A stretch of 32,932 bases of DNA, from NCBI GenBank assembly GCA_003602475.1, contig QQSC01000039.1, positions 1-32,932 on the forward strand, written 5' to 3'. The notes beneath the pieces were generated by a model. It was not told the DNA's origin and made no database searches. It was given only the letters and a program-made list of their open reading frames with translations. Both the position numbers and the translations under genes were made by a program. The stretch is from Candidatus Poseidoniales archaeon (GTDB lineage Archaea; Thermoplasmatota; Poseidoniia; Poseidoniales; Poseidoniaceae). Shown piece by piece: positions 12,465-13,886 of the stretch. Numbering within the stretch: the stretch's first letter is position 1; each line of letters opens with the position of its first letter.

Positions 12465-12896
12465 TCACTCAATGAACTGCCAGCGGTCATGCCCCAAACG
12501 AAGGACCAATCCTTCGTGTTCAACGAGGGCCATGAACTCGGTTGGCGGAGTTTGAACATTCAATGAACGAAGCACTCGCTGCACTTCTTCAGCTGAAATG
12601 GTCTCTCCTTGGGCAGCCTTTCGAAGGGCCATCATCGTGGCCGAGGCAGAGGTGTCTCGATTGGCATCCTCATGTCCCACACCAATGCGAAACGCCAATT
12701 CATCGCGCAGTTCCTCGGGCGTGTTCGCCAACGCAACCGCCCGTTGAAGAAGAGCAGCAGATTCCACCTCCGAAACCACTTCGGTCTCACGTGGTAGGGG
12801 TTGGCCGCACAACGTACACGAACGAGGAATGGAACGTTGACCTGTGCATCGTAAACACGATGGGCATCGAACGACGAGCCAGCGCTGTTCCTTCAT
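12465..12896 (-). CDS. Zinc-ribbon protein of unknown function
   Basis: The 143-residue product starts at ATG 12896; frame upstream of that lies in the neighbouring gene. It opens with a zinc ribbon (CPSC at about residues 11-14 and CTLC at about 27-30), continues with an Arg/Glu-rich helical segment, and ends in a compact helical/strand region that may be a winged-helix-like fold (EEVQRVLRSLNV...TEFMALVEHEGLV). The ribbon-plus-helix layout resembles haloarchaeal DUF5817-type proteins, but that is only a visual similarity. It lies ten bases after the arginine-decarboxylase-like gene in the same direction, so co-transcription is likely. Confidence 0.7.
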   Translation of the reverse strand: MKEQRWLVVRCPSCLRCTGQRSIPRSCTLCGQPLPRETEVVSEVESAALLQRAVALANTPEELRDELAFRIGVGHEDANRDTSASATMMALRKAAQGETISAEEVQRVLRSLNVQTPPTEFMALVEHEGLVLRLGHDRWQFIE

Positions 12897-12906
12897 GCCA
12901 GCACCA

Positions 12907-13551
12907 TCATAGGGTGAAGTCGGTGTTTTGATTGGAGGATTGCCCAGGCCGACGTGCTGGTGCTGCTGGAGCTTTTGTGTCCACACGCTTCGGAGGTTCA
13001 GTAGCGGTTCGAGTCAATCCGCCACGAATTGGCCCGGTACGTGTTCGAGCACCCATCGCTAACGATTCGGGCAAAATCAAGGCTGCTACGGCCACCCCGT
13101 GATGGTCCTGACCTGCGGTGACCTCGTCGACGGCCATGTCGAAATGAATGACTTCCAAATCTCGACTGGCCAACCTTCGTTGCAAGTTTCTGCGTAGAAG
13201 GATGGTGGTCTCTTCATAGTCCAAATCCGTGGCGATTGTTGCGACGATGGCACACTCGTCCCCTTCAGGAGTCACACAAGATGCCCATGCCACGCCTGCA
13301 GAAGCAGAAGAACCGCTCCAAGCATAAGCCGTAGCCAAGTGGCACTCAACGAGAGAACCCATGGGCAACGGTCGGGGGGCAGCAACGCCGAATCCCAGCG
13401 GTAGCATGGCGCCTTGAGCTTGGATCAATCGCACATCGCCAAGTCCCAACTCAACGAGGCCCTGATCGAAGGCGTCTTCCGCATTCTCACCCCAAGGTGC
13501 AACGGAAGTCATCAACCATCCGGGGCAAGCAGGTCCAGAACCTTGGTTCAT
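12907..13551 (-). CDS. Pyruvoyl-dependent arginine decarboxylase-like protein lacking the processing serines
   Basis: Residues about 20-165 follow the PvlArgDC fold: an AFDQGLVELGLGDVRLI segment (family: AFD.ALL.AGIG.VNLI), then PLPMGSLVE (family: LPMGALVP), an Ala/Ser-rich strand, a helix, and a final GVAVAALIL strand. Known enzymes self-cleave between two serines in (V/I)xxSSxxPP to form the pyruvoyl cofactor. Here the equivalent stretch reads QAQGAMLP, so Ser-Ser is replaced by Gln-Gly. It is therefore probably not a pyruvoyl enzyme: either a pseudoenzyme or a protein with a changed function. A basic, Pro/Thr-rich 45-residue tail is added at the C-terminus. ATG 13551 (214 aa) is preceded by GTGAG. 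The gene sits just upstream of a zinc-ribbon gene. Confidence 0.7.
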   Translation of the reverse strand: MNQGSGPACPGWLMTSVAPWGENAEDAFDQGLVELGLGDVRLIQAQGAMLPLGFGVAAPRPLPMGSLVECHLATAYAWSGSSASAGVAWASCVTPEGDECAIVATIATDLDYEETTILLRRNLQRRLASRDLEVIHFDMAVDEVTAGQDHHGVAVAALILPESLAMGARTRTGPIRGGLTRTATEPPKRVDTKAPAAPARRPGQSSNQNTDFTL

Positions 13552-13601: not shown

Positions 13602-13886
13602 ATGACCATAGGGCCGAGACGACTCTTTGCGCTGGCCTTTTCCGCCATGGGCGTCGCTGTTGCTGTGCGTTCAATACAACAAAGTGAATGGATGCTCACA
13701 TTGGCCGCATCGTCGTTGACGATGGGCTTTGTGTTCTTGTTATGGATGAGCTCATCCTCACCAGTGACCTCAAAGGCGCGCCATCCTACGGCAATTGAGC
13801 AGGGACTTGGTCAAGCAGGTAGGGTCGATGCAGTGGCCTCGGATTTGCCCGACCCGCTTGAACACGGATTTGACATGCCCCTCTAG
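13602..13886 (+). CDS. Small membrane protein of unknown function (94 aa)
   Basis: The product has two predicted membrane helices (about residues 8-23 and 31-48) separated by a short loop, then a hydrophilic C-terminal half ending DPLEHGFDMPL. I recognise no family. It is divergent from the arginine-decarboxylase-like gene across 50 bases. Its stop shares CTAG with the stop of the convergent fttA gene, which argues that the frame is maintained. Start: ATG 13602 with no obvious ribosome-binding site, possibly leaderless. Confidence 0.55.
   Translation: MTIGPRRLFALAFSAMGVAVAVRSIQQSEWMLTLAASSLTMGFVFLLWMSSSSPVTSKARHPTAIEQGLGQAGRVDAVASDLPDPLEHGFDMPL

Follow-up and report, generated by a model that had tools for sequence, protein, structure and literature searches.

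Poseidoniales, which are among the most abundant archaea of the surface ocean, carry a homolog of the pyruvoyl-dependent arginine decarboxylase PvlArgDC that is almost certainly a pseudoenzyme. We analysed it in a window of 32,932 nucleotides, the whole stretch of DNA under study, which is contig 33 of a 1.95-Mb MAG whose named relatives are Poseidoniaceae or Candidatus Poseidoniales. A preliminary description of this DNA had offered a pseudoenzyme as one possibility, and the evidence agrees with it: the pyruvoyl-forming residue is missing from 121 of 121 relatives, two more catalytic residues have been lost and the gene is under strong purifying selection. Our main reading, to which we give a probability of about 0.6, is that a displaced PvlArgDC has been kept as a non-catalytic scaffold or ligand sensor together with a zinc-ribbon protein. 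Families and genera are designated below by anonymous labels (f1 to f3, g1 to g25); f1 is Poseidoniaceae by way of the named relatives, and f2 and f3 are Marine Group IIb-like and Marine Group III-like, respectively, by kinship only.

Table 1. Positions in the window of the PvlArgDC homolog, its parts and the partner gene.
Feature	Position	Strand	Description
Pseudo-PvlArgDC gene	12907..13551	-	214 aa plus stop; coding 13551-12910; stop codon 12907-12909
Pseudo-PvlArgDC protein regions			Folded core, residues 9-161; tail predicted to be disordered, residues 168-214
Gln-Gly-Ala-Met codons, residues 46-49	13405..13416	-	Align with Ser52-Ser53-Ile; pyruvoyl-forming residue absent
Asp29 codon	13465..13467	-	M. 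jannaschii Asp35; sole retained active-site residue; 121/121 members
Thr105 codon	13237..13239	-	Position of catalytic Glu109; relatives have Thr, Lys or Ser
Basic Pro/Thr tail predicted to be disordered, about residues 169-214	12910..13047	-	Carries RVDTKAPAAPARRPG and conserved C-terminal DFTL
Partner gene, 143 aa	12465..12896	-	N-terminal zinc ribbon (CxxC...CxxC) and C-terminal winged helix

Fold and active site of the PvlArgDC homolog

The open reading frame is uninterrupted and encodes a protein that runs from MNQGSG to TDFTL. The PvlArgDC framework noted in the preliminary description proved to be above chance by several measures, although the profile suggested there as a check, PF01862 from Pfam, matched neither the window protein nor any other protein of the window's genome. 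This profile matches 24 of the 35 members in a set of relatives that includes six catalytic members, and six divergent f2 relatives pass it. The NCBIfam model TIGR00286 matches the window protein with an E-value of 1.3e-5 and 24.9 bits, far under its equivalog cut-off of 106.95 bits. An HMM of 12 Ser-Ser PvlArgDCs from other Thermoplasmatota gave 46.9 bits (E ~5e-15 in a search of 36 sequences), and a profile comparison with PDB entry 1n2m gave an E-value of 2e-4. When the pseudoenzyme family was aligned with hhalign, the probability was 98.6% over 134 columns for the short (M. jannaschii-type) PvlArgDC and 8.7% for the long type, and an HMM of the long type did not match the window protein. 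These HMM and hhalign results rule out an origin from the long type carried by the sister family f3.

The AlphaFold2 model, for which the underlying alignment took in six catalytic sequences, has a core with pLDDT mostly above 90 and a tail with pLDDT below 50. Overlay on the Methanocaldococcus enzyme, also suggested earlier, gave a good fit of this predicted model, with a best Foldseek match at E 8e-14, TM 0.87 and rmsd 2.3 to 2qqd/1n2m. All of the top 12 Foldseek matches are M. jannaschii PvlArgDC, the S53A proenzyme among them, and significance was reached by pyruvoyl decarboxylases (M. jannaschii PvlArgDC) only. By homology and predicted fold, the window protein is a diverged PvlArgDC. It has in common with the short M. 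jannaschii enzyme (1n2m, 1mt1, 2qqd; PF01862, TIGR00286) the fold, Asp35, and the LPMG and D-H-(H/Y)-G elements. It differs from that enzyme in having Gln-Gly-Ala for Ser-Ser, Arg for Asn47 and Thr for Glu109, in scoring under the family cut-offs, and in an added tail of about 47 residues that ends in DFTL.

The preliminary description had read the self-cleaving Ser-Ser as replaced by Gln-Gly. Ser-Ser is indeed gone, but the best alignments place Gln-Gly-Ala in a loop that is one residue longer and do not support a clean swap. Across 121 family members the loop reads x-[QKEHR]-G-A-[MF]-L-P, and the former cleavage site is always [Q/K/E/H/R]-Gly-Ala; what is conserved in relatives is Gly-Ala (121/121), while the first position varies among Q, K, E, H and R. 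Because Ser, Thr or Cys occurs at this site in none of the 121 members, pyruvoyl formation is impossible by known chemistry. The losses go further than had been described: Asn47 is replaced by Arg41 (1n2m numbering for the former), with Arg invariant in the 121 members, and Glu109 by Thr105, while Asp35 is kept as Asp29. For the roles of Asn47, Glu109 and Asp35 we follow general background and what the titles of two mutant structures, 2qqd (N47A) and 2qqc (E109Q), indicate. With its catalytic residues lost, the window protein is predicted to lack arginine decarboxylase activity.

Distribution, selection and the source of agmatine

Members of the pseudoenzyme family were found in 167 of the 293 genomes of the class, about 135 of 148 in f1 and 32 in four genera of f2, and the pseudoenzyme is, as far as searched, confined to Poseidoniales (Marine Group II). 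In the sister family f3, PvlArgDC is of the long type and intact, and SpeD is absent; PF01862 matches 20 f3 genomes and no f1 genome. Outside the class, PvlArgDC (PF01862) is present in about 225 of 238 Thermoplasmatota genomes. Ser-Ser is intact in all 52 catalytic loci that could be read, with 10 more loci unparsed by the pattern. In the complete genome G002 the gene looked broken, but only because of masked bases. We also noted that a contig placed in the bin of an uncultured Rhodobiaceae bacterium (L044) carries a Poseidoniales locus and is mis-binned.

The pseudoenzyme sequences form one clade (support 100/100) on a long stem, which long-branch effects prevent from being placed among the PvlArgDCs. 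In close pairs of genes, with saturated pairs left out, dN/dS is 0.012-0.061, and identity is 70-91% across the f1 genera sampled. At such dN/dS values (0.01-0.06) the PvlArgDC homolog is maintained by selection and is not decaying. In genomes from seven f2 genera the order psmB-aCPSF1-zinc-ribbon gene is kept and the pseudoenzyme is gone. Six such loci form a single clade (100/99) inside f2 in an aCPSF1 tree; thus, one loss suffices. This Marine Group IIb-like clade keeps both SpeDA and the zinc-ribbon gene.

The preliminary description had raised the idea that the genome encodes a true decarboxylase at another locus. One is present, but it is of the SpeD type; a second, intact PvlArgDC was not found in the window's genome with PF01862. 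A PLP-type arginine/ornithine decarboxylase of family PF02784 was found in 0 of 16 genomes. TiaS, which needs agmatine, is encoded in 16 of 16 genomes, and this rules out that the need for agmatine was lost. The SpeD family is present in 241 of the 293 class genomes, which belong to f1 or f2 without exception. In the window's genome, the SpeD gene lies between speB and speY (G000:C18, ~15.3-17.7 kb; locus L124) and encodes intact equivalents of Ser63, His68 and Cys83 (LIDESHxTAHxY...FTCG). These residues and the speB/speY cluster are the marks of SpeDA, and a speB-speDA-speY cluster has been reported for Poseidoniales (PMC10407285). In assays, SpeDA from Poseidoniales and MGII/III was active with arginine and not with ornithine or lysine, and AdoMetDC function was not restored (PMC10407285). 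The MAG contains two speDA-speY loci, at 15.2-17.7 kb of G000:C18 (L124) and at 1-1.3 kb of G000:C30 (L123), with sequences that differ; they are either paralogs or the product of a mixed bin.

SpeDA of Ca. Poseidoniales (PMC10407285) is thus encoded in the window's genome and probably supplies the activity missing from the pseudoenzyme. It belongs to the AdoMetDC family and is encoded with speB and speY at a separate locus, whereas the pseudoenzyme has the PvlArgDC fold. We consider it very probable that PvlArgDC was displaced by SpeDA, which can explain why catalysis by the PvlArgDC homolog became dispensable. Judged solely from distribution, SpeDA would have been gained before catalysis was lost.

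The zinc-ribbon partner and the C-terminal tail

The zinc-ribbon gene that had been placed ten bases downstream is indeed there, its start codon at 12896 being 10 bases past the stop codon of the pseudoenzyme gene, and a tRNA-Pro lies beyond it. In almost every f1 and f2 locus that was read, it follows the pseudoenzyme gene in the same orientation, with a gap of usually 3-57 bases. Among 12 loci of other Thermoplasmatota with a Ser-Ser PvlArgDC, position and architecture place a zinc-ribbon gene directly downstream in 8. Full-length hhalign comparison of the zinc-ribbon genes of the two groups gave 98.1%, against 0.1-0.5% for column shuffles. Since the zinc-ribbon gene also follows live PvlArgDCs, the gene pair existed before catalysis was lost, and the shared pairing supports positional orthology of the pseudoenzyme and the live PvlArgDC. 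The zinc-ribbon gene itself needs no pseudoenzyme, because it persists where the pseudoenzyme has been lost.

We searched for the function of the zinc-ribbon protein by PDB profile and by fold and found only an MCM8-like winged helix. The resemblance to the MCM8 WH (Foldseek probability 1.00, E 0.02) is weak by sequence and is weakly consistent with nucleic-acid or protein binding. Presumably the partner gene resembles archaeal DUF1922, and like the DUF1922 and DUF5817 zinc-ribbon proteins it combines a zinc ribbon with a winged helix. The Pfam profile DUF5817 weakly matches 6 of 28 partner-gene members (best E 0.017, below the family cut-off), and the window's copy is not among the listed matches. 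The first zinc knuckle is CxxC where the pseudoenzyme is present (21/21; L158-L168) and CxC in the clade that lacks it (12/12; L230-L243); we do not count this change as evidence of contact because it is likely one event on one branch.

Other features of the surroundings were noted. A scan for promoter patterns gave matches at chance level. At 13602-13886 on the (+) strand, divergent from the pseudoenzyme gene, lies a gene for a small membrane-type protein, and counterparts in several f2 loci have a similar C-terminal motif, LPDPxExGFDxPL. Loci L057-L075 have the aCPSF1-psmB block inverted relative to the pseudoenzyme pair, and the pair is then directly downstream of a ZPR1-like gene. The live Thermoplasmatota PvlArgDC is near a PAC2-like gene in L208, L210 and L212 and also near a small GTPase-like gene in L208 and L212, both named by sequence appearance.

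The basic Pro/Thr tail, previously put at 45 residues, is present, but it is about 47 residues long, is predicted to be disordered and is not random in sequence. Tails of f1 members share RVDxKAPAAPAxRPG, and the protein ends in [D/N]F[S/T/G][L/F] in all but a few members of f1 and f2. The linker has diverged while the C-terminal motif is kept, which is the pattern expected of a docking motif.

Possible roles of the pseudoenzyme

In our main reading, the gene would be the descendant, at the ancestral locus, of a short (M. jannaschii-type) PvlArgDC. Arginine decarboxylation would have been handed over to the SpeD-type enzyme SpeDA in the Poseidoniales lineage, and the old PvlArgDC would then have lost Ser52-Ser53, Asn47 and Glu109 along a single long branch to become a pseudoenzyme. 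The protein may form the PvlArgDC trimer, with the retained Asp possibly holding a guanidinium ligand, arginine or agmatine, and may serve the zinc-ribbon/winged-helix protein encoded with it as scaffold or ligand sensor; the disordered tail and C-terminal D-F-S/T-L would dock a partner. That the pseudoenzyme works with the zinc-ribbon protein is possible, at slightly less than even odds. That it is a ligand sensor rather than a pure scaffold we hold to be unlikely. It is quite unlikely that an arginine/agmatine sensor controls, via its DFSL tail, the zinc-ribbon/winged-helix protein as a nucleic-acid-binding protein, with the live enzyme perhaps a moonlighting regulator across Thermoplasmatota.

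A purely structural, ligand-free trimeric scaffold that links the zinc-ribbon protein or the proteasome/aCPSF1 neighborhood is somewhat unlikely. It fits the conserved fold with a disordered tail that ends in a short linear motif, and the long-standing neighborhood with psmB and aCPSF1 in f1 and f2 loci. However, this neighborhood is rearranged in some genera (L057-L075), and a scaffold would have no need of an invariant Asp29 at the former guanidinium site.

Many residues are invariant in the pseudoenzyme family alone (for example H71, C92, H150 and R41), and a new, pyruvoyl-free catalytic activity on the PvlArgDC fold might use them. Selection is also very strong, beyond what a loose scaffold may need. 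Yet several of the invariants are Trp, Gly or Pro, suited to packing or interfaces, a known enzyme motif is absent and Foldseek significance is confined to pyruvoyl decarboxylases, so that we regard a new activity as improbable.

The trypanosome AdoMetDC prozyme is a dead homolog that activates a decarboxylase, and SpeDA and TiaS co-occur with the pseudoenzyme in the same genomes. A prozyme-like regulator of SpeDA or of agmatine use (TiaS, agmatinase) is nonetheless improbable. Although the trypanosomatid prozyme is, like the pseudoenzyme, a dead pyruvoyl decarboxylase homolog under selection, it pairs with its own active paralog, and none was found for the pseudoenzyme. SpeDA is of a different family, and the pseudoenzyme gene is unlinked to the speB-speDA-speY cluster. 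Because an entire f2 clade has SpeDA without the pseudoenzyme, the latter is not an obligate SpeDA partner, and the earlier suggestion of a regulator of a true decarboxylase is unsupported as an obligate role.

A decaying gene heading for loss, as its absence from one small-genome clade of f2 might hint, is refuted in f1 by the selection data. The identity across genera, the conserved tail motif and the presence of the pseudoenzyme in nearly all f1 genomes also speak against it.

The retention of a displaced PvlArgDC as a non-catalytic scaffold or ligand sensor is therefore the reading we prefer. A search of the open-access literature found no description of this pseudoenzyme. The zinc-ribbon/winged-helix gene is next in line both to the pseudoenzyme gene and to most of the other Thermoplasmatota PvlArgDC genes sampled, and the analysis brings this gene pair to light. 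Annotating the Poseidoniales proteins as arginine decarboxylases is misleading. The case is one of non-orthologous displacement: the enzyme that was replaced persisted, strongly constrained, as a pseudoenzyme.
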